Below are positions 28,832-63,800 of a stretch of 64,000 nt of DNA, one piece after another (within the stretch, counting starts at the first letter, position 1; each line of letters starts with the position of its first letter). The position numbers and the translations under genes were made by a program. This DNA comes from Perkinsus olseni (taxonomy: Eukaryota; Perkinsozoa; Perkinsida; Perkinsidae), in NCBI GenBank assembly GCA_013115135.1, contig JABANP010000087.1, positions 1 to 64,000 on the forward strand, read 5' to 3'. The notes below the pieces were generated by a model. The model searched no databases. It was not told the DNA's origin and saw nothing but the letters and a program-made list of their open reading frames with translations.

Positions 28832-31800
28832 CTATGAATGGCGCTTCAAAGCTGGGCTGCAGAACCTGAAAGATTCTCTACGCGACTGGACCGGCACTGA
28901 AATCGAACTACTTTCAGATTCCTTCTTTGAGTATCGAGCCCGCTTCACCTCATTTCTGCGGCTCTTCTTCTCGGTGGCCCGCCTCTTCTTCAGAGTGATC
29001 AATTCTTGACGCCTGTCGTCAGTGAGATTTTCCGCCAACGGACAATAGTTCAATTGGTGGAAGTTCTCGTCGCAGAAGGTCTCATGAGGATGAAGGACAC
29101 CACTTTTCCCGATGATGCGGCTCTTGAACGGCAGTTGACATAAGCCGCAACGCCGCTTGCCAGTTGTCGAGTCTTCCACCTTGACGTGGCGAGCGGCATC
29201 TTCCGCCTTTTTCTTCATTTCGACGAGGCTCGGATCAACCGGGGGCCTTGGATCCATAGGACAGCGACCAAACTTACTGCCATCGCTTTCGTGATCGTTG
29301 AAGCTTCGGTCGACCGTCAACGGCTTCGAACAGAACTTGCAAATCCCCTTCACGGCTTTCACAGGGGGAATCGCAGGCTCCGGCCGCACACTAGAGGTTG
29401 ACGGGACAATATCCTTGGCCGCCTCAGATCTCTCTCTAAGCTCGCTGCAGAGGTCATCGCCAGTGACTGGCCTCGGCCCAGGTCCCAGAGGTAGACCTTC
29501 GGATCGAACCCGCGCTTGAGGCACCTCATCAAACTGTGGAGCGGCTCCAGGTGTCAGGCTTGCATCCAGCTCCGCTATTGCTTCTGCCCCGCGCACAGTA
29601 GGGGGTACGAATGTGGCTCTACACGAGTTGAGTTGCTTCAGGAAGGTCTTTATACAATCCAGAGACACAGGGTGATAGGGTAGAGGCTTTCTCCCCGTGA
29701 GCAGGGCGTCGTCGACCTCATCGAGAGTTTTGCGCAGATAGGTTCGATAGACGAACGTTGCACACCCACTACCACTCGGAGCTTCGCTGATTATGGCTCT
29801 TACGGTCCCTCGAACAAACTCCGACCATTTGCCCAATTTCACCGTGTGAGTGGTAGTATGCAAGCCTTTCAAGCGACAAAACTTGCGCTTGGGCTTACCT
29901 GCCTCCATCGCTGACCGGAAGGCAGCCTCCGTTCCCTCTACAGAGGGTAAATCCTCAGGGTCAGTCATTTCTACGTCTTCAAAATCGACTCCTTCCCCAC
30001 CCGCGCTGCCTGCTGCTGCATCGAAGACGAGCTCCTCAGTTTCATCACGAGGCTCCTCGTCCCCGGACTCGTAGCCGTCAGCAATCTCACCCCTTTCCTC
30101 CAGCCACTCTTGGACGATCTCCTCGTAGCGTTGGGAGTTCAGCATAGTCAAGTACTCGTGTCCGAATGTTACACCCATCGGATTGAGTGTGATGTCCATC
30201 CCGTCGCACTGACTCAACTGTAACTGGGTAGCCTGATACTCGCTGGCGGATAGGGGGATGGGGATTTTGCTCAGTTGGCTGTCCGGATCAAGACGACTAA
30301 AGAGCCGGCGGTTCGCGAACACTGCCCTCCATAGTATCTTAGAGTCGTAGACCGGACCCCCAGCTCGACTCACATGACTGAGGTCGCGACGTAGGCAAGC
30401 ATGCCGCGACTCATTGCGCGACGTGCCTCGGGTATGGCAGAGATTGCCGTGGGAGTCGGCCATGACCGGAGCGATGATCGTGCTATCAGAAAAACACGAG
30501 TTTCGAATATGCTTTTGGAGAGACTGATACTGGCCCCAGAAGTTCGATGAGGCCCTGAATAGCGGAGCACCAACAGTTCCCATGAACGGTGCACCACTGG
30601 ACGGATCTGCTTGGGACGCATCCGCCGCCGAGCGTCCCTCCTCGTCGAGCTCCCAGAAACATTTCACGACGGCGGCTACCCGCCGGGAGAGCTCCTCAGC
30701 TCCTGGAACCCGCCGCCTTACGTTCTGGCGGATTTCCGTCTTGGACGGAGCGCCTACAAGGCCAGCCGCCGCTCGCTTGGCCCTCAACTGAGCCATGTCC
30801 TCGACAGAATCTTGGTAAAAAGCTCTGCTCAACTGGACTGCGAACATGGTGTGGCGAACATGATTCGGGTCCGTCGCTCTCAAAAGGCGAAAGATGCCAT
30901 GCAGAGGATCTACTTTGAGCTCCAGCGACGTGACCTGGAGAGCCTCAATGAGCTGTCCGTGAGCGCGTGAAGACTCCTCATTACAGCACAGGTAGTCGGT
31001 GAAGATCACCAAGTGGTCCGGTACACGCCCTCGGAGCTCACGTAATGCGGGTAGAAGACCAGCCAGAGAGACGTCCGGAACTGCCACGGTGTTCAGGATG
31101 ACTCCAGCATCGCCGATCACTACGGCTACGTATCCTTGTTTATTCGAGGTCAGACGCTTCGCCGTAGATCTCGTAAAATCCAACGAGATCGACTGAACCA
31201 CGGTATACGAAGCCAGCTCTCGGCAAAGGACTGATCTATGCCTTGAGAGGTCGCGTATAACAGCAGTACGGAGCATGGAGTGACTGACGTGAACTGACGG
31301 CGAGGAGACTGCCTCGGTAGGAGTCATGTCCCAAATAGATCGTGCCTCCTTTGACAGTTGGTGGAGGAGGGATCCTGGCCGGCACTTGTCCCTTACGACA
31401 CAGAAGAGCGCCCGCCGTCTCTGCAAGGCCTCCTGCTCTTCCCCTGCCAGGTTTTCAAGTTCTCGACCGATATGCGATCCGTTGCGCAGCCTCCTTATCA
31501 CTGTCATACTGACCGCAATCTGTTTGCCCACGATCATACAACTCTCCAGAGACTCCCTCACTGACGATGGCAGGCTATCGATGAAACGATAATCTAGGGC
31601 CGAGAAGCAGCTTTTGCACTCCGGGTTGCGACACGACCTCCTGGTCGACACCAAACGGGCGGGCCACCCATTCAATCCTACCACATGCTTCACAGGAAGT
31701 AATTCCTTGACCGAACTTATTGCAATGCTCTTACAGGAAGGGCAGGACCCCCCGAAGGGGTGCCGCACGTATAGAGATGAGCCTCGAAGCCGAGGCAGGA

Positions 31801-32185
31801 CGTTCTCTGTTGGGCAGGTCGTGATGCTCTCCAGAGGCGGTAGGCAGTACTGGTACAGCCCTGGAACGCTGTTGTCCCCTTCTCGGAGCTCTTTTCCAAG
31901 AAGGCGTTCCAAATCGGAAAGGGTCTTCGGAGTGCATCGAAAGTCGCGATATGAAGAACTAGGCGCCTCATTCTCCGGATTCGTCCTCCCTCCGCTACTA
32001 GAACTCGCCTCACAAGCCGTTCCACTGGGTGCAGTAGTAGGTTGCTGCGACGCAGTGGCCGATTTGGCCGCAGAACTGGGTGGGTTGGTAGGGGCCTCAG
32101 CAGCCTTATTTCCGAACCATTTCAGTCCTTTCTGACGAGATTCCTTCTCGCGTGGGCGGATTATTTCATCTCTGATCTTTTTCAC
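28832..32185 (-). CDS. transposase, DDE/KDZ-like, single exon, 1117 aa
   Basis: An intact intron-less reading frame. The N-terminal part is Ser/Pro-rich. It is followed by a cysteine zinc-binding region (CPSCKS ... CRNPECKSCFSALDYRF ... LPSSVRE) like that preceding KDZ/DUF6729-type transposase cores. Candidate catalytic positions are D in SLDFTRS (about residue 335), D in FTDYLCC with KVDPLHG (about 397-430) and E in RGTSRNESRHACLRR (about 588). Then come a D/E-rich stretch and, near the C-terminus, two further C-x-x-C pairs (CKFCSKPL, CGLCQLPF). It would cut and paste its own element. Superfamily assignment is by motif resemblance, not by search; a decayed fragment of the same gene lies at 40965-41220. 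Confidence 0.75.
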   Translation of the reverse strand: MKKIRDEIIRPREKESRQKGLKWFGNKAAEAPTNPPSSAAKSATASQQPTTAPSGTACEASSSSGGRTNPENEAPSSSYRDFRCTPKTLSDLERLLGKELREGDNSVPGLYQYCLPPLESITTCPTENVLPRLRGSSLYVRHPFGGSCPSCKSIAISSVKELLPVKHVVGLNGWPARLVSTRRSCRNPECKSCFSALDYRFIDSLPSSVRESLESCMIVGKQIAVSMTVIRRLRNGSHIGRELENLAGEEQEALQRRRALFCVVRDKCRPGSLLHQLSKEARSIWDMTPTEAVSSPSVHVSHSMLRTAVIRDLSRHRSVLCRELASYTVVQSISLDFTRSTAKRLTSNKQGYVAVVIGDAGVILNTVAVPDVSLAGLLPALRELRGRVPDHLVIFTDYLCCNEESSRAHGQLIEALQVTSLELKVDPLHGIFRLLRATDPNHVRHTMFAVQLSRAFYQDSVEDMAQLRAKRAAAGLVGAPSKTEIRQNVRRRVPGAEELSRRVAAVVKCFWELDEEGRSAADASQADPSSGAPFMGTVGAPLFRASSNFWGQYQSLQKHIRNSCFSDSTIIAPVMADSHGNLCHTRGTSRNESRHACLRRDLSHVSRAGGPVYDSKILWRAVFANRRLFSRLDPDSQLSKIPIPLSASEYQATQLQLSQCDGMDITLNPMGVTFGHEYLTMLNSQRYEEIVQEWLEERGEIADGYESGDEEPRDETEELVFDAAAGSAGGEGVDFEDVEMTDPEDLPSVEGTEAAFRSAMEAGKPKRKFCRLKGLHTTTHTVKLGKWSEFVRGTVRAIISEAPSGSGCATFVYRTYLRKTLDEVDDALLTGRKPLPYHPVSLDCIKTFLKQLNSCRATFVPPTVRGAEAIAELDASLTPGAAPQFDEVPQARVRSEGLPLGPGPRPVTGDDLCSELRERSEAAKDIVPSTSSVRPEPAIPPVKAVKGICKFCSKPLTVDRSFNDHESDGSKFGRCPMDPRPPVDPSLVEMKKKAEDAARHVKVEDSTTGKRRCGLCQLPFKSRIIGKSGVLHPHETFCDENFHQLNYCPLAENLTDDRRQELITLKKRRATEKKSRRNEVKRARYSKKESESSSISVPVQSRRESFRFCSPALKRHS

Positions 32186-32897: not shown

Positions 32898-33170
32898 TCC
32901 AGGAGGGGAATCATCTCTGTCCCGAAATCGCGCTGCTAGTGTTCTTCCGCACGCAATGTGCTCTAGCTTAGCACCGGATGTGTCACCCCAAGCGACACGC
33001 CTGTTTTTTTCCGATCGTTACGGTCCACGCTTTGAAGAGAAAGTTTTGTAGGACCTCAATTCGCAAGACGCTTTCTGAGTAAGTTGGCAATTGCCTCCGC
33101 GAGCACTTGATTCTCCTTCGTTGGAGGAGCTCGAGATCTTCAGGGTCGGCGTCGCGTCCGTTTTTCACTT

Positions 33171-33499
33171 TGATGAGACCGAAGACTGTCTCATAGATGA
33201 CCCGCTTCCCTCTCGTGTTGGGATGCGCATCTCTGTCGCTACTGGTGTCTCAGCTGGTGTTCGACGTCCCCGCCGTTACTGGTCGTCAGGTAGGGTCTGT
33301 GGCGTGCGCAGGTCTGGCGCCCTGGATATCCTATGGGACGGCGCCGAAACGGCTGGCTGTGAAACTGTCCGAGTTGATGATGCCGAATTTAAAGTGTTGC
33401 GATGAGTTGCATGCTCAGTATTATTCCGTATATAATCCGTAGCCATCTTGGCTCAAGACCTTAGTTGGGTTTTTGCGTTTCCCCAATTAGGATCTAACA
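33171..33499 (+). repeat. 5' LTR
   Basis: This starts TGATGAGACCG and ends ATCTAACA. It differs from the 3' LTR at 33219, 33237, 33273 and 33343 only. Its first 235 nt contain the duplicated coding end of pol. TATATAAT (33429-33436) directly precedes the spliced-leader sequence, so U3/R is probably near 33436. Confidence 0.93.
33436..33457 (+). promoter_or_regulatory. spliced-leader sequence inside the 5' LTR
   Basis: These 22 nt (TCCGTAGCCATCTTGG followed by CTCAAG) match the dinoflagellate/Perkinsus leader consensus DCCGTAGCCATYTTGGCTCAAG in full. The next bases are AC, not GT, so this is an SL-tagged exon rather than an SL RNA gene. It is followed by a 41-nt leader and the gag ATG. Confidence 0.88.
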
Positions 33500-34935
33500 T
33501 GGCGACACCTTCCGACGAACTCCAAGCGGCAAGAAGCCAAATCCGTCAATCCAAGCGTGCACTCCGTGACACTCGTGAGAAGTTGAAGAACATCCTCGAC
33601 GACGAGACCGACGACACCAAGAAGATTATCAATGACCTTCAGGTTAAAGAAGTCAACCTGACCAAGTGCATCGAGGAACTCGAGTCCCGCATCGCTGAAC
33701 TCGAGCTGTCCATCGACAACGAGCGTTCACAGATCGCTCGACAAGAAGGCCGGTCGAGAGTTGCGCTTCCGACAACGCCAACAGCTGAGAAGCAGAACAA
33801 GCATGCCATTTCATTATTCATGTCCGCCAGCGAGCATGAGCAAGACGACAAACGTGACGACGACATCGACAACCACGAGACTCCCTCGAAGATACTCTCG
33901 TCCGCCTCCTCCGACCAGCTTACCGCGGCTGACCTTGGCGCTCTCTCGGTACCGTCGCTTCAGACTCCGTCATGCATTGGTGCCCATCTATGCTTGCTGG
34001 AACAGCTCTTCCAGGAGGCCGGTGCTGGTACGATCAGCTCTGGTGTGTTCATACCTCATGGACATCTGCGCATCACTGTGTACAACAAGCTGCTCGAGAG
34101 CGTCCAGTCCTGCGAGTTGGTATCGAGTGTAATTCACGACATCGCCCAGAACAGCGAGTACAAATGGTCCGTGATCAAGGCTGAACTACAACAGGAGTTT
34201 GCCCGTCGAGACCTTCTCAAAGCCGAGTACAACGCGGTCATGAGGTCTCTCTCCTTCTCCGGCCTTGGCACTGTGGAAACCTTCTTACGGAAGGCCCTGG
34301 CTGCCTTTCGTATGTACCGTACTGTGTACGGCTCCGACCGGGCTGAACTGCGGTCCATGACTAGATCCGTGGTCATGAAACTGCCAGAGAAGCTCCGGAT
34401 ATGTGTGGTCCAGAGTCTGCAGAGTGAAAAGGTTGGTAGTGGTGACTGGGAACTTGCCTTGCCGTTTGATGATACCAGTGGCCGTCCGTCTGTGATATCT
34501 GTCATCAGATCTAACTGTCGTACCTTCCGAGATGCTGGTGTCTCTCTCGACAGTCATCACGGTTCCAACAACAACAGCAACCGTAACCACAGCAACGGCA
34601 AAGGCTACCACAACTCTACCGACCGAGTAGCTCAAGTATCTGACGGTAAAGGTGGTCGTGGCGAGTCCCTCTCCAAGTGGGCTGGCCGCTTCGCGGCTGT
34701 GTTTGTCGTTACTGGCCCTGGAGTCGCAGGCTCCCCCGAGAATCACGTCCACTACGACGATGCTCGACACTACCCCCGGAAAGATGGTAACGGCGTCATC
34801 TGGTTTCTGGCCTATAAGGATGAGGAGAATGGTTCCAAGATCATCGGTGACCTCTCCAGTGACCAGTTCGAGACCAGAAGGTTCGAGTTCCGTACCAGAC
34901 GCCTCACATCTACCCCGGCCCCGTCAAAAAACTAA
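33499..34935 (+). CDS. gag-like protein, 478 aa
   Basis: The ATG is at 33499-33501, its A being the last base of the LTR and TG the first bases of the internal region. Residues about 5-85 are a charged heptad-rich coiled coil; the middle resembles a retroelement capsid region. The tail is His/Asn/Ser-rich without a CCHC knuckle. The frame ends TCA AAA AAC TAA, so the stop sits directly after a slippery heptamer. Expected to form the virus-like particle core. Confidence 0.82.
   Translation: MATPSDELQAARSQIRQSKRALRDTREKLKNILDDETDDTKKIINDLQVKEVNLTKCIEELESRIAELELSIDNERSQIARQEGRSRVALPTTPTAEKQNKHAISLFMSASEHEQDDKRDDDIDNHETPSKILSSASSDQLTAADLGALSVPSLQTPSCIGAHLCLLEQLFQEAGAGTISSGVFIPHGHLRITVYNKLLESVQSCELVSSVIHDIAQNSEYKWSVIKAELQQEFARRDLLKAEYNAVMRSLSFSGLGTVETFLRKALAAFRMYRTVYGSDRAELRSMTRSVVMKLPEKLRICVVQSLQSEKVGSGDWELALPFDDTSGRPSVISVIRSNCRTFRDAGVSLDSHHGSNNNSNRNHSNGKGYHNSTDRVAQVSDGKGGRGESLSKWAGRFAAVFVVTGPGVAGSPENHVHYDDARHYPRKDGNGVIWFLAYKDEENGSKIIGDLSSDQFETRRFEFRTRRLTSTPAPSKN
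33500..33517 (+). other. putative primer-binding site
   Basis: TGGCGACACCTTCC follows the 5' LTR directly and begins with TGG, as expected for pairing to a tRNA 3' CCA. None of the tRNAs in this window ends with the complement, so the primer tRNA is unknown. It overlaps the first codons of gag. Confidence 0.45.
34926..34932 (+). promoter_or_regulatory. -1 ribosomal frameshift site A AAA AAC
   Basis: In the gag frame the codons are TCA AAA AAC TAA. A AAA AAC is the X XXY YYZ heptamer. A -1 slip there reads AAA AAA CTA AGT AGG and enters the pol frame, which is open from this point. A downstream pseudoknot was not tested. Confidence 0.8.
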
Positions 34936-37900
34936 GTAGGCCTGATGCTGAGGTTCGCGAAACACCTTTGCATCCTGCCGGCCTATCTACTGAAGTTTCG
35001 CAATCCGTCTCTCCTCCAGTTAGCGAGGATAGTGTCCTTGCTCTTTCGTCTGCTACCATTCCGCCCGAGATTCTGCTGCGTGGTGCCCTTCGTTCCACAT
35101 CGTCTAGCACTTGGGACTCTGCCGTTGACGTTCCCGTTCTCGTGGACTCTGGCGCTGGTGGCAACTATTTACTGGTGTGTGATACCGATGCTGATTCTCT
35201 CATTCATAGTTCAGGCGCTCTATTCACCCCGTCCAAGAGCTCCGGCCCAGTGAAGTCAGTGTCCCTTGCCGATGGCTCCCGTCGTACCATCAGCAAGTCC
35301 GTTGATGTCACTATCGGTATCTACCCAGTCGGCTCGTGTGGTCGCGAATCCCTCGTCGGTCAGCAGCAGGTGACTCTTAGCGTGCTCCCCGTCTCACCTT
35401 GTCCTTTTCTCCGTCCAGGATCTTGGTGTACGCTCGCTGGTCGCAGTCTGCTGGCGCTCTGGGATCTGACTACCAAAGGCTCGACTTATGCTACGATAGG
35501 CGACGTATGTGTCTTCCGTACAAGCTCTCCCGATGACCGTGCTTCGGAGACTCATACCCCCTGTCTGGCACTCTGTGACGATTCTGACGGCCCCGACCTG
35601 TCATCGACTGGCGTGGAGATCCAGCCTTCCTGCGAGTCGACTCCTAGCTCCATCAGTGTTGTGCCGTCCGATGACATCGTCCACCGTATTGAGCAGCTTC
35701 TTCAGCAGCTCTGTGATCAAGGATGGCGCCCTCTTGTGCGATGCCCGAGTGAAGCTCTCCGTGTCAAGCTCCGTCGTCTAGCTCCTCATGAACCCCATGA
35801 CACCGATATCCAAGCCTTCTGTTTCACCGTCGACCTCTCCGCCTTCGACAAGTCGAAGGTTGGTCCACAGCGAGGCTACGCACGAGGGCTTTATAACCGT
35901 CTATCGAGCGCGGATAGGGAGACCTATGCGCGGCTCATAAAGGACTACTTGGACCGAGGATGGTGGTCTTCCGTTGAGAAGTGTCAGCTAAACCGCATCG
36001 CCGACATTTCGCCGCCAATTCCCGTCTTCATGATCGGTGGTTCATCATCCAAGTCTTCTGCGACCGTAAAGAAGCCCAGATTAGTCTTGGATTGCCGAGC
36101 CATCAACGAAGGACTCCCGTCAACCAGTAGTGAGAACCCTAGTGGCTCACTGATCATCAATGCTCTCCGCTGGTCTTCCCCCGTCGCCATAGCGAGCATT
36201 GATGCACAGCAGGCGTTTTATCGCCTGCAGGTAAGTGGTCTCACACTGCTGCTGGTGAGTGCCCTCGGATGCTATACCAGCCGTCGCATCTGCTTTGGTC
36301 TCTCCCCAGGAACGTCTTCCCTACAATCCTCGTTGGGAACCCTCTTCTTCCTTGTGACCTACCTCTACATCAGTGGTTTCTGGAGCCTATATGTTGACGA
36401 TGGCATACTGTCCGGGTCCGTCCGTCACCTCGTCTACAACCTCACTGTGCTGGTCTATGCCATGCTCCTCTGCGGCTTCGCGGTGCAGTTGGCCAAGTTC
36501 GCATGCATATGCGAGCCCTCTCATGCAGCAGAACTGAGTGAGTCTCTCAAGCCTCTCGGAACCGTGCCTTCAGAGTCTCTCTCGCTCCTGCGTACTTCGC
36601 TCTGCTACCGCCCTGGCTCTCTCGTACTCCACTGCTGTCGTGAAGAACGTCTCGACCGTGTGTACAAGTTTGCCTGCTCTGATACCATCTATCAGCTCTC
36701 CAAGTCCGCGGCATTTTCCTATGCTGGTGCCCTCTCGTATGATGTGGGAAGAGTCCATCCAGAATGCCGAAGCTGTTCGGATGGCATCCGATCGTTGCTG
36801 GGTCGCTGCTTGGCGAAGCAAGGATGGCAAACGGTGGTCAATCTCCGAAGTCAGCTGACCGCTCCACAACTGGCCGCCTACGACTACTTCATCCGATGGA
36901 TGAAAGAGCTCTCCTCCCCGTCCGCTGCCAAGTGCTCGCACGTCACTCCATGCCCGTCAAATGATGAACTACCGGACCTTACCCTCGTGACCGACGCCTC
37001 TCGTTCCGGTGGTGGCTTCCTTGTACTTCGTGGCTCAGTGGAGGGCGGGAGCGAGACTGGTCTCGCAGATCTGCCGATGCTCTGCGGTGATGCCTTCCGG
37101 TGGTCTAGGACTCAGAGGAACTTCCATTCTAACCGCCGAGAACTGTTATCATTGGTGGTTGGACTCCGTGCCTGCGCCGACTTGGTGTGCCACTACTTCA
37201 CCAACTCGAAGGACTCATCTGCTTGTGGTTCTCGCCGCCGACCCAAGGTGCATGTCCTCTCTGACAACAAGGCCGTCATCCACTGGTCTCGTGAGGATGC
37301 CCCCGCCTTGTTCAACAGTGGCCAAGCGCTGGAGAAACGAGCTCTCACTCGCCTTGTCCTGGTGGCAATGGACGAGCTGAAGGCTCTAAAACGTCATGCA
37401 GATATCGAGGTGAGACACGTTGAGGGTCGTATTAATATCCTGGCTGATAGACTGTCACGTTTATACGATAGTGTGATAGCTCCCGGGATTACTTTGAGTG
37501 ACGTTCTCTGTGATGATCTTCCGAACTCTACTCCCGTGTGGCCGGAGGAATCCGATGATGACATCCGTTTCCTCTCCGTGGAGTCGTCACCCGAGCCGCT
37601 CACTCATTGCTGTGATCCTTACACCCGTGATCGCCTGTTTCTCTTCCGTCACTGCGAGCAGAACGCCGGTGATGTCTCACTCGATCTGCGAACTGATTTT
37701 GTTGGCCTTGTAGCTAGCTCTCCTTTCGAAGTATCGCCGTGCTTCGTGGAACATATAGCTACCCAGTGTTATGATTACTCGACCGTGTTGTCGCGTGTCC
37801 GCTGTCTCCGTTTCATCCTTCGCCTTCTCCGTGCGAATGCTGTAGGAGCGGACCTATCGGTCATCGAGTATTCAGGGGTGCCTTGCGACGCCGACAAGCG

Positions 37901-39665
37901 TGCCCTGGTTTGCGCTGCTCAGCGACACGACGAGTTCTGTTCTTCCACCCGGTCTCGAGGCCCTCCACCGTGTGGCCCTTATGTGATATCTGATGACGGT
38001 TACCTCGATATTCCCTTGGTCTTGTTCCGGTCCGGCAGTCCTTTTGGCACCGAACTCTTCCAGTACGTACTCCCCAAGTCGGTGCCCAAGCTCCGTGAGA
38101 AGGTGCTGAAGGACGCCCACCTCCGTTCGGAACATCTGACCGTGAGGCCTACTCTGTCACTGGTGGTCGACTACCATCTCCCCGGTGCCACTCGTCAGTG
38201 TCGTGATCTTCTGAGCAAGTGCATTACCTGCAAAACTCTCCGAGCTCAGCGGTCGTGGTCCTCACTTCCATCGGTCCGCAGCGAGGCAGCAGCTCTCGCG
38301 CATTTACCTCCGTACTGGCATGTCTCGGTGGACTTCCTGGCCGTTGGCAACCACGTCAAGCTTTTCAGTGCGGTGTGCATGTTCACTCGTCACATCACAC
38401 TCTTCCGTGCCAAGTCGGAGTCGAGCTCGGAGGCGTTGCGGCTGCTGAAGCTCCTCAAGGCGAAGACTGGCTCTGTTCGCATTGTGACTTGCGACCGAGC
38501 CTCCTACTTCAGGTCGACCGATCAGTTCATTCGCCGTGTCGAGTCGGAGCTCGAGGCTAGTGTTTGCTTAGCCTCAAGCAGATCCCCGTGGGAGATCTGC
38601 TCGGAGTCGCACAACGCCATTGTGATCGACCGTCTTCGATGTATGCTTCGACACAGTTCTGGTAAGTGGCCTTCTGACCGTGATGATGAAGACCTACTGC
38701 TAGAGCGGCTAATGTCGATCATCAATTGTCGTCCGCTTGGTACCTTCTTGATCAGTCAAGGTTCCGCCGAAGTCGTCACTCCCGACAGCCTCTACTTCGG
38801 CCGGACGAGAGACGGTGGTGGTTCTCTCAGTGGTTCGAGGCCCACTTCTACTGATCACTCCCATCTCATGCCGAACAGACTGAAGACCTTCCGTAACGTC
38901 TTCCTCAGCTCGGTGTGGTCAGAGCTCAAGAAGCGGTCTCTCACCAATGTGTCTTCCAAATGTAAGAACGGTCACGCCAAGCCTCAGGTATTCTATCCTG
39001 GTGATGCGGTGTTGGTCCACATGACTGGCCGCAAGTGCGGTATGGCTTTCCGCATGGGCCATGTGGTCCGTGTCTTCTCTCCTAGGCGTGTCCAAGTCCG
39101 ATTCCCTGGTGGCCTCTTGACATACGAGAACGCCTTCAACTTGGTCATTCTACGTCCCTTCCCAAGGCTTGACTCCGACGTTCCTGTGGTGTCACGTGAA
39201 GGACTCCGTCTACGAGTACGGGATGACCAGGCGGTTGGTCAGTGGCGTTCTGGCGTCGTTACTCATGATCCTTGTGATCTTGATGACGACCGGGTATGGG
39301 TACAGTTCGACAATGGTGATGCTCCGAAGTTCATCTCCCTCAGCACTTGTCGATGGCAGCCCTTAGACAAGAACATCAACAACAAGGCCGATAATGATGA
39401 TGGTGCTCGCGTGCCCTCGCAAGGGGGGCGTGATGAGACCGAAGACTGTCTCATAGATGACCCGCTTCCCTCTCGTGTAGGGATGCGCATCTCTGTTGCT
39501 ACTGGTGTCTCAGCTGGTGTTCGACGTCCCCGGCGTTACTGGTCGTCAGGTAGGGTCTGTGGCGTGCGCAGGTCTGGCGCCCTGGATATCCTATGGGACG
39601 GCTCCGAAACGGCTGGCTGTGAAACTGTCCGAGTTGATGATGCCGAATTTAAAGTGTTGCGATGA
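34933..39665 (+). CDS. pol polyprotein: protease, RT, RNase H, integrase
   Basis: It is reached by the -1 frameshift at 34926-34932; no ATG is needed. Positions counted from 34968 give an aspartic protease with VDSGAG at about 58, then RT with KPRLVLDC (about 365), SIDAQQAFYRLQ and YVDDG (about 475). RNase H follows with TDASRSGGG (about 675), NRRELL and LSDNKA. The integrase has HLRSEH...CITCKT zinc binding (about 1045), D in HVSVDF, D in VTCDRAS and E in PWEICSES (about 1208). The C-terminal 150 residues contain two small beta-barrel-like segments (RSGVVTHD...RVWVQFDNGD and SSGRVCGV...LDILWDGSE), Tudor/chromo-like by eye. The last 78 residues are encoded inside the 3' LTR. Confidence 0.9.
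39421..39430 (+). other. polypurine tract of the retrotransposon
   Basis: AAGGGGGGCG directly precedes the 3' LTR, the expected place for plus-strand priming. It is also coding (in pol). Confidence 0.65.
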
Positions 39666-39759
39666 GTTGCATGCTCAGTATTATTCCGTATATAATCCGT
39701 AGCCATCTTGGCTCAAGACCTTAGTTGGGTTTTTGCGTTTCCCCAATTAGGATCTAACA
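39431..39759 (+). repeat. 3' LTR (holds the pol stop and a second spliced leader)
   Basis: Same length as the 5' LTR. The pol frame runs in and stops at 39665. The spliced-leader 22-mer recurs at 39696-39717. Confidence 0.93.
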
Positions 39760-39772
39760 CTTGCTGCGACGG

Positions 39773-39853
39773 GTCAGTTTGGCCGAGTGTTCAAGGCGCC
39801 AGACTCAAGCCCTGGTGGAGAGATCCCCGTGGGTTCGAATCCCACAGCTGACA
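39773..39853 (+). tRNA. tRNA-Leu (CAA), array unit 2, partly decayed
   Basis: The acceptor GTCAGTT/AGCTGAC is kept. The anticodon stem has a mismatch (CCAGA/CCTGG), and the D loop lacks one G of the usual GG compared with unit 1. It may be a failing copy. Confidence 0.7.
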
Positions 39854-60800: not shown

Positions 60801-63800
60801 ATGACTGATACTCCTTTAACTGATCCTGATCATTCGTCCGACAACGACGATAGTATATACGACTTACCACAACAAGCAATAGAACCACACGTTGACGAGC
60901 AAGAAAGAGGTTCTCAGGTAAGTCAGTTTATATTTTGAGTATGGACTTTAACGTACGATTTGTGTTATAGATAAATCCAAGCCGACAATTTAATGACAGA
61001 CAGATTTCAATACGTCGTAGATTACCCAATTACCATCAACGTCAGCTGATACACGAAGTGGGCATCGTTCATCTCACAATCGACAATCGCGTTCTAATCT
61101 GCTTCATGGTCAACCAGAACCTGACAATCAGGTTTGTGCGATTTAAACTACGAATACATCATGACTTTAATTTATACGATTAATTTTGTCAGGTCAGTGG
61201 AGTTTCCTCAACTGCTTCACATCGTTCACATCCTTACGTGCATCATCATTCGTCTCTCGATACACTGTCTAATGCTGTTGTATGTTATTGAACGGAATCT
61301 ATGCTGTGTTAAATATCTATATTCAGAACACGTCATATCGTAATCAAGGACAGCCTCCACGAATACTGAATCAACCACTCGTTGACGAGCAAGAAAGAGG
61401 TTCTCAGGTAAGTCAATTTATATTCTGAGTATGAATCTTAGAATACGATTTGTGTTATAGATAAATCCAAGCCGACAATCTAATAACCAACAACTACATT
61501 CTCGCTCAGTTGGTGACCAACAACAACAACATTCTGACTCTGTAGTAAATCACTCGAGATCGATACCCAATATTACGTACGAATTTCCCAGATTATCCAC
61601 TTCTCGTCGAGCCCAAGTCGTTCACATTCAAACCCAGCTAATGTTCAACAAGGAGAACCTGATCATCAAGTAAGTCAAGCTTGATGCAACGATTCAACGA
61701 CAGACAGATTTCAATATGTCGTAGATTACCCGATTACCATCAATGCCAGCTGATACACAAAATGGGCATCGTTCATCTCACAATCGACAATCACGTTCTA
61801 ATCCACCTCATGATCAACCAGAACCTGACAATGAGGTTTGTGCGATTTAAACTACGAATACATCATGACTTTAATTTATACAATTAATTTTGTCAGGTCA
61901 GTGGAGTCTCCTCAACTGCTTCACATCGTTCACATCCTTACGTGCATCATCATTCGTCTCTCGATACACTGTCTAATGCTGTTGTATGTTATTGAACGGA
62001 ATCTATGCTGTGTTAAATATCTATATTCAGAACACGTCATATCGTAGTCAAGGACAGCCTCCACGAATACTGAATCAACCACTCGTTGACGAGCAAGAAA
62101 GAGGTTCTCAGGTAAGTCAATTTATGAATCTTAGAATACGATTTGTGTTATAGATAAATCCAAGCCGACAATCTAATAACCAACAACTACATTCTCGCTC
62201 AGTTGGTGACCAACAACAACAACATTCTGACTCTGTAGTAAATCACTCGAGATCGATACCCAATATTACGTACGAATTTCCCAGATTATCCACTTCTCGT
62301 CGAGCCCAAGTCGTTCACATTCAAACCCAGCTAATGTTCAACAAGGAGAACCTGATCATCAAGTAAGTCAAGCTTGATGCAACGATTCAACGACAGACAG
62401 ATTTCAATATGTCGTAGATTACCCGATTACCATCAATGCCAGCTGATACACAAAATGGGCATCGTTCATCTCACAATCGACAATCACGTTCTAATCCACC
62501 TCATGATCAACCAGAACCTGACAATGAGGTTTGTGCGATTTAAACTACGAATACATCATGACTTTAATTTATACAATTAATTTTGTCAGGTCAGTGGAGT
62601 CTCCTCAACTGCTTCACATCGTTCACATCCTTACGTGCATCATCATTCGTCTCTCGATACACTGTCTAATGCTGTTGTATGTTATTGAACGGAATCTATG
62701 CTGTGTTAAATATCTATATTCAGAACACGTCATATCGTAGTCAAGGACAGCCTCCACGAATACTGAATCAACCACTCGTTGACGAGCAAGAAAGAGGTTC
62801 TCAGGTAAGTCAATTTATATTCTGAGTATGAATCTTAGAATACGATTTGTGTGATAGATAAATCCAAGCCGACAATCTAATAACCAACAACTACATTCTC
62901 GCTCAGTTGGTGACCAACAACAACAACATTCTGACTCTGTAGTAAATCACTCGAGATCGATACCCAATATTACGTACGAATTTCCCAGATTATCCACTTC
63001 TCGTCGAGCCCAAGTCGTTCACATTCAAACCCAGCTAATGTTCAACAAGGAGAACCTGATCATCAAGTAAGTCAAGCTTGATGCAACGATTCAACGACAG
63101 ACAGATTTCAATATGTCGTAGATTACCCGATTACCATCAATGCCAGCTGATACACAAAATGGGCATCGTTCATCTCACAATCGACAATCACGTTCTAATC
63201 CACCTCATGATCAACCAGAACCTGACAATGAGATTAACGTAATCCAGACAACTCCTTAAATCCATACATAATCATTTTTTTACAGGTTAATCACATTTCC
63301 GACGTGTCAGCTCAGAGGCCCTCTCCTATTAATCATCGAAACGTAACGAATGAACATCCCGATCCAAGAGTACCCGTAAGAAGGCATATAGTTCGAAATC
63401 GTCCACGTCGTCGACCTCGACGTGCGTTGCTCAATAATATGGGTAGAGTTTGCACTATTGATGACTTTTCATATGATACCGTAGTATATCATTCCCTAGG
63501 TAGTATGACAGAAGTTTGTCCTTCATGTGGTGCTTTTATGTGGAAACTTGAACGTCTCACTCGTTCAACTTCGCGCAATATATCTTTCGGTTTATGTTGC
63601 TTGTCGGGTAAAGTTGTAATACCGTCTCCTCCTGCATGTCCCCTTTATCTTAAAAATCTTTTGCGAAATGAAGAAGCTATGAACAGATATTTCGTCAAGC
63701 ATATTCGACGATTTAATACTGCATTAGCCATGTGTAGTATGATAGCTAAAGACATCTCACCGAATGGGCCTTCAGCTTACGTAATACAGGGGCAAGTTTA

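Follow-up and report, generated by a model that had tools for sequence, protein, structure and literature searches.

Intron-less copies of the spliced leader (SL) have been described from the genome of Perkinsus marinus, in which more than 100 such sequences, most of them beginning with T and variable in their downstream part, were found and termed non-functional SL-like sequences (Zhang et al., 2011; PMC3101222; this and the other published systems are cited from the accessible sections of the respective papers). 3' RACE and RNA blots on these SL-like sequences gave no clear products (PMC3101222, section 16), and the sole mention of 'retro' in the text of that paper refers to retroviral frameshifting. 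Dinoflagellate retrogenes carry relict SLs, that is, an SL tag in DNA that stems from SL-headed RNA (PMC3229502, PMC6050394, PMC12014239). Their acceptor is an internal AG after nucleotide 7 of the SL, which leads to stacking of relict SLs (PMC3229502), and the relicts are truncated, often in tandem, and located before host genes. Cer1, a Ty3/gypsy element of C. elegans, is an LTR element in a trans-splicing host, and one of its mRNAs carries SL1. However, its 8-kb RNA is not trans-spliced at the SL1 site, and the accessible sections of the account do not mention an SL within its LTR (PMC3315495). Finally, dinoRNAV is a mobile RNA genome whose assembly carries the host SL 5'-terminally (PMC10235124), an arrangement that we propose here as well, but it is a non-retroviral RNA virus without LTR or strand transfer.

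In the Perkinsus olseni DNA studied here, a single, nearly full-length SL is located in both LTRs of elements that encode a reverse transcriptase (RT). Our search of the open-access literature (titles, the openings of abstracts and selected passages) retrieved no description of LTR retrotransposons with a host SL where R is expected to begin, and no paper joining the spliced leader with strong-stop DNA or trans-splicing with retrotransposon template switching and LTR.

Anatomy of the element in the window

The window (the whole stretch of 64,000 nucleotides that was analysed) contains a complete LTR retrotransposon, assigned to family A, with the following features.

33168..33170, plus strand: left target site duplication CTT, flanking the 5' LTR
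33171..33499, plus strand: 5' LTR of 329 bp (TGATGAG...TCTAACA), in direct repeat with 39431-39759
33428..33436, plus strand: GTATATAAT, TATA-like, abutting the SL core on its 5' side (read in the sequence)
33436..33457, plus strand: SL copy in the 5' LTR, T plus the 21-nt host SL core, exact pattern match
33499..34935, plus strand: gag-like open reading frame
33500..33510, plus strand: TGGCGACACCT, candidate primer-binding site position directly 3' of the LTR, with a homologous site in families F and G
34968..39665, plus strand: pol ORF with protease LVDSGAG, RT LYVDD, RNase H, H2C2 zinc finger and integrase D1122-D1176-E1213
39421..39430, plus strand: polypurine tract AAGGGGGGCG, preceding the 3' LTR, with similar stretches in families C, F and G
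39431..39759, plus strand: 3' LTR of 329 bp, direct-repeat partner of 33171-33499
39696..39717, plus strand: SL copy in the 3' LTR, exact pattern match
39760..39762, plus strand: right target site duplication CTT, flanking the 3' LTR

The sequence TCCGTAGCCATCTTGGCTCAAG occurs exactly at 33436-33457 and 39696-39717, and these are the sole matches in the window at up to three mismatches, compared to 0.01 expected from shuffled sequences. A preliminary description had placed an SL in both LTRs of a retrotransposon, and the 329-bp direct repeats, each with its SL, bear this out. Reading of the positions also confirmed that the SL directly follows TATATAAT and that the gag ATG, the first ATG, begins 41 nt past it. 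The SL is followed by AC and not by GT, so that there is no intron and, as had been claimed, no SL RNA gene. However, the match to the consensus, which had been called full, is so only because the D in the consensus allows a T; the 22-mer is exact, but the host SL is matched at 21 of 22 nt. The base before the core, a T in the window element, is an A in all 21 SL RNA genes read, and SLs of P. marinus begin with A as well (PMC3101222, accessible sections).

The order RT-RNase H-integrase in the A pol fits Ty3/gypsy elements. Matches of the A pol to Pfam were weak, with values of 4.1e-05 for H2C2 and 5.3e-05 for rve, both below Pfam's own cut-offs. The RT aspartates, RNase H residues D676/E725/D766 and integrase residues D1122/D1176/E1213, all of which we take to be catalytic, are invariant across four aligned pol sequences, and the DSGAG protease motif is present in A and F. 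The only protein matched by the A pol query is from P. chesapeaki, with 69% identity in the best alignment, which covers 34% of the query; this homologue has the sequence GGRDETED, which is also found at the start of the A LTR. Similarly, a protein database search with the A gag retrieved a single protein, 81% identical, which begins at the gag ATG and does not extend into the leader, and the gag ORFs of A and F share 26.8% identity over 512 aligned columns.

LTR pairs are 98.8% (A), 99.6% (F) or 98.9% (G) identical, and all have the form TG...CA. Target duplications amount to 3 bp (CTT in A, CTA in F, TTA in G), unlike the 4-6 bp usual for Ty3/gypsy elements. A polypurine tract, GGGGGGCG or similar, lies 5' of the LTR in A, C, F and G, and also occurs in C188. 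In A, F and G, the gag ATG straddles the LTR boundary, its A being the final base of the LTR and its TG belonging to the TGG that follows; family B apparently has the same arrangement. As the A pol ORF spans most of the 3' U3 (39431-39665), U3 doubles as coding sequence. ATGs are present 5' of the SL within U3 of A, and with an RNA 5' end at the SL the gag ATG would therefore become the first one.

Past the LTR, families F and G have TGGTGACAGCTGT(G), whose complementarity to CCA plus a tRNA-like 3' end extends over 14 nt in F and 13 nt in G. This tRNA-like end occurs at 42 exact places in the genome, and one of them, in the window (C856:5247-5268), reads as the 3' half of a long-armed tRNA with no tRNA call by ARAGORN. 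In A, the TGG is in place, and the tRNA-end pattern for its primer gave 20 matches versus 16 for the reversed control. Among 47 tRNAs in the DNA examined, no complementarity of at least 7 nt to the primer-binding strings tested was seen (the G string was one base off). Evenly spaced arrays of tRNA-3'-end-like places were also noted; those in C522 and C571 fit the F/G primer site, those in C202 and C324 have the tRNA-Leu(CAA) form. A tRNA-Leu gene starts at 39773, the window element being inserted 13 bp upstream of it. Elsewhere in the window, an unbroken ORF of 1117 aa without Pfam match adjoins the element (28832-32185, minus strand), and 60883-63235 consists of tandem repeats with a unit of about 700 bp.

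Spliced leaders across the genome and its retroelements

The 21-nt core CCGTAGCCATCTTGGCTCAAG was searched in the 61.5 Mb of the genome (968 contigs), which gave 85 exact matches versus none for the reversed pattern. At up to three mismatches there were 199 matches versus 2, and 100 of these 199 were listed with positions. Among the exact cores, 36 of 85 lie in arrays or clusters of SL RNA genes (21 were read, 15 assigned from their position within an array). In the SL RNA genes an A precedes the core and the intron start GTAAATATCAG or a close form follows, in one case GTAAAATATCAG; the host SL RNA genes thus contain CTCAAGGTAAATATCAGGTCC, in agreement with the published P. marinus SL RNA primer.

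The remaining 49 exact cores belong to 11 families (A 12, B 12, C 3, D 6, E 4, F 2, G 2, H2 1, J 2, K 3, L 1) and a singleton at C445; five A cores were assigned from coordinates alone and all other non-array cores were read. That the LTR copies might be chance matches or SL RNA pseudogenes has nothing more in its favor than the existence of SL gene arrays in this genome. Chance is ruled out by 85 exact matches against none for the reversed pattern, an SL RNA pseudogene by the lack of a GTAAATATCAG intron in the LTR copies read, and the recurrence refutes both, so that this explanation can practically be dismissed. The same recurrence in 11 families disposes of the chance or one-off event considered in the preliminary description. 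Its proposal that the SL is a constituent of the LTR is upheld by the recurrence and by the location of the SL where R is expected to begin in A, F and G.

Six of the families (A, F, G, B, K and J) fall within or beside one clade of LTR retrotransposons. Three of them, A, F and G, are complete elements. Pairwise identity among their pol proteins amounts to only 25-37%, whereas their SLs are identical. Their LTRs, the only ones delimited by a repeat pair, measure 329 bp (A), 228 bp (F) and 279 bp (G, whose repeat of 280 counts one chance base). B (C748) and K (C602) are located just 3' of pol genes from the A/F/G clade, and J adjoins a pol fragment of this clade (C470). Some of the remaining families are found in the vicinity of distant integrase genes or of a putative tyrosine-recombinase element. 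Family C is found past an integrase gene and a polypurine tract, and in L an integrase match is 2.9 kb away (C810). In E, protease-RT and integrase ORFs follow 3' of the SL and one same-strand SL pair is 6.1 kb apart (C714); a relative, E' in L047, has a mutated SL and RT and integrase 43% identical to those of E. D includes a same-strand SL pair 7.3 kb apart (C438), as well as a copy (C35) that is followed by host-type genes. In H2 (L047), a possible DIRS/Ngaro-type element, RT-like and tyrosine-recombinase-like ORFs lie 3' of the SL; both are weak matches (RVT_1 0.0015, Phage_int_SAM_1 0.00067, Phage_integrase 0.0052, all below Pfam's cut-offs), and PDB searches with both ORFs gave no match.

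When one representative from each of the 11 families was compared, gap-free 40-nt flanks agreed on average at 11.4 of 40 positions before and 11.5 of 40 after the core (55 pairs), whereas the core was identical at 21 of 21 positions, as only exact cores entered the comparison. In a 90-bp segment around the SL, C and F can be aligned with 79% identity, and GTCTCAGT after the SL is common to C and D. These data bear on the idea of an inert relict, according to which reverse transcription of an ancestor's SL-tagged RNA left a tag that was then inherited without function. SL-tagged retrogenes are widespread in dinoflagellates (PMC12014239, PMC6050394, accessible sections) and provide a precedent. 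However, an unconstrained tag should diverge together with its flanks, yet all 21 nt are identical in 11 families with mostly unalignable flanks, and many independent recent acquisitions would be needed; we therefore judge an inert relict to be quite improbable. The SL feature of these elements is real, repeated, and constrained or renewed.

The base before the core is T in seven, G in three and A in one of the 11 representatives, compared to A in the host gene; within family A, copies C63 and C291 have an A. A shared block that starts at SL nucleotide 2 would be expected if the cap-bearing base is not copied. The extent of this block, from exon nucleotide 2 to the last base without intron or upstream gene sequence, also argues against recruitment of the SL as DNA or RNA for a role other than forming an RNA 5' end, for example in protein binding (as an Sm-like site), as part of a promoter or in packaging. 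The SL exon has been said to hold the only candidate Sm-like site of Perkinsus (PMC3101222, accessible sections), which speaks for such a role, but on balance we find it very improbable.

Like the SLs in the LTRs, the P. marinus SL-like sequences are intron-less; here, the SLs are located in LTRs (A, F, G) or beside retroelement genes. When leaders given as primer strings in the accessible sections of PMC3101222 were compared with the 11 families, the merged P. marinus S-like leader scored J and D above each of 1000 shuffles and the L2-like 3' primer scored D above each of 1000 shuffles, while the L1-like leader scored none of the 11 above shuffles. The S-like leader is preceded by the 21-nt (short) SL type in P. 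marinus, whereas the exact-core J and D copies carry the 22-nt (long) type, so that related LTR leaders differ in SL type between the species, as far as short primer strings permit this comparison.

Junction variants, decay and absence of the leader

In four copies of family D (C35, C423, C869 and C247), the SL is followed by GTCTCAG and then TGTACG or TGTACA, and C36 has GTTTCAC in place of this segment. In contrast, three D copies (two in C438 at LTR spacing, one in C812) lack the 7-nt segment and the SL is joined directly to TGTACG. Similarly, in the B copy of C748, the only such B junction found, the upstream flank is kept and the SL is joined to a base 46 nt further downstream, immediately past ...GGGAG. 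The sequences of these D and B junctions suggest what trans-splicing at another AG would leave. However, the variants are few and could be ordinary deletions via a 2-nt AG microhomology, which weighs against the explanation that we consider best. For B, a deletion by homology appears less apt because the 6-nt CTCAAG, ending four bases before the junction, would serve more readily.

An AG ends exactly 7 nt past the SL in five of the 11 representatives (A, C, D, F and K), the segments being ACCTTAG in A (window 33458-33464), GTCTCAG in C and in D, GCTCAAG in F and GTGCGAG in K (loci L036, L050, L042, L069 and the window). This AG may be a second acceptor, and the short form of D lacks exactly that segment. 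In family F (L042, 2220-2247, SL on the plus strand after turning), GCTCAAG repeats the 7-nt end of the SL, perhaps as a trace of slippage or of a second splicing event; among the SLs read, it is the only repeat directly after an SL.

The whole A LTR was used as a genome query, which avoids the selection of exact cores. It gave 41 matches, 25 of which span or reach the SL position. The core is exact in 12 of these copies, substituted or, in C291, shortened by one deletion in another 12, and deleted in one (C251). None of the 25 copies represents an ancestral form of the A LTR without SL, and in those that span the site at 71-86% identity to the query the SL was always mutated or lost, a decay in old copies that speaks for an inert relict.

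The F pol protein matched 41 times on 30 contigs (30 of 187 candidates scored); by eye, a listed SL could be assigned on 8 of the 30 contigs and not on 22 (in C913, the nearest SL is about 8 kb away). No SL at up to 7 edits occurs in about 390 nt past the polypurine tract of C188 or in the 345 nt from pol to the contig end of C43, a stretch with a direct repeat resembling its LTR. Both belong to the same pol clade, and the stretches read thus rule out the SL as a universal trait. Among 150 scored H2C2 integrase matches (of 458 candidates), a listed SL was seen by eye near 4 (C361, C289, C108 and C810), within about 5 kb on the same strand. With regard to related elements without SL, which the preliminary description had considered as evidence for a chance or one-off event, 24 of 25 A copies keep an SL, intact or mutated, and the C188 and C43 relatives have none in the stretch read. 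An SL is thus a frequent, though not an obligatory, part of the LTR.

A change from C to T at position 2 of the core was present in 17 of 21 places in one examined set of altered SLs. The three places read belong to family E, one further place is the D copy C247, and C206 contains a same-strand pair with the spacing of the E pair. As both members of the C206 pair at LTR spacing carry the change, core position 2 at least is inherited and not renewed there. Propagation of this variant is a further point in favor of a relict and is not predicted by full renewal, but it would fit if the first bases of the SL stay uncopied. A single SL of the short type (CATCTGG) was found in the genome; it lies in an A-family LTR (L062, C291:40005-40345) and may be due to the 1-nt deletion. 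In old relatives of A (C102; C634, C339 and C303; L054, L057-L059), ATTTTGG, the dinoflagellate form, replaces ATCTTGG in the middle of the SL. C634, C339 and C303 were not accepted as independent insertions because the flanks read are common to them.

Source of the RNA 5' end

LTR elements need matching ends of their RNA. Trans-splicing replaces the 5' end and would thereby destroy the match unless the 3' end encodes the leader as well, and the elements seem to have overcome this mismatch by carrying the leader themselves. We propose that R begins with a copy of the host SL, that the element RNA receives its 5' end by SL trans-splicing, and that the SL is used in first-strand transfer, a reading to which we assign a probability of about 0.5. 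The primary transcript would start upstream in U3, and SL trans-splicing would supply the RNA 5' end, with either the terminal AG of the embedded SL or an AG shortly after it as acceptor. As trans-splicing would set the 5' end, the RNA would start with the SL wherever transcription began. From a primer adjoining the LTR, reverse transcription would then run to the start of the SL core, which lies 63 nt (A), 112 nt (F) or 91 nt (G) from the LTR end, and 63-112 nt are a plausible length for strong-stop DNA. The end of this cDNA, complementary to the SL of the 3' LTR, would anneal there for first-strand transfer. Both new LTRs would in this way regain an SL, copied in part from the host SL RNA. 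From the sequences we infer three parts of this scheme, namely trans-splicing of the element RNA, the limits of R and the use of the SL in transfer. The block that begins at SL nucleotide 2, together with the D and B junction variants, leads us to favor putative renewal by trans-splicing over simple inheritance.

Since no stacked relict SLs are found here, the proposed trans-splicing would require the terminal AG as acceptor, or else the SL is encoded mimicry. In the latter case transcription starts at the LTR's own SL, which is selected because host translation or cap addition favors SL-headed mRNAs. The single SL, with no stacking bar the 7-nt repeat in F, is what such mimicry predicts, and a TATA-like stretch lies directly 5' of the SL in both A and F (in F, GTATATGAT, similar to that of A). 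Usually, however, a TATA box is found some 30 nt upstream of the start, whereas TATATAAT abuts the SL. Also, there is no motif common to the families in the upstream columns, the first base is mostly not the A of the host SL, and the junction variants in D and B are unexpected under mimicry. The SL at the 5' end of dinoRNAV was interpreted as molecular mimicry (PMC10235124, accessible sections), which lends the idea a precedent, but taken together we consider encoded mimicry rather unlikely. The first base of the RNA separates it from trans-splicing: ACCGTAGCC reads from copies with TCCGTAGCC in their DNA would contradict encoded mimicry.

A wider form of the trans-splicing proposal, which we put forward only tentatively, is that the host SL RNA would supply the 5' end of the genomic RNA in each round and be written into both LTRs. 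A whole set of retroelements would then possess a part inherited from a host small RNA and tracking the SL type of the species. If true, SLs in LTRs would record in the DNA which trans-splicing sites and SL types were used through evolution, and an explanation could be offered for the P. marinus SL-like sequences of 2011.

A scan of viral contigs for SLs yielded one contig (L051; IMGVR_UViG_3300045993_001077), unrelated to the LTR elements. At 1936-2913 on its minus strand are two DinoSLs of the CATTTTGG type, 147 bp apart. The genes of L051 are AT-rich, whereas the second DinoSL precedes a 254-aa ORF of richer composition, and from its sequence the segment looks like a captured dinoflagellate SL-tagged cDNA.
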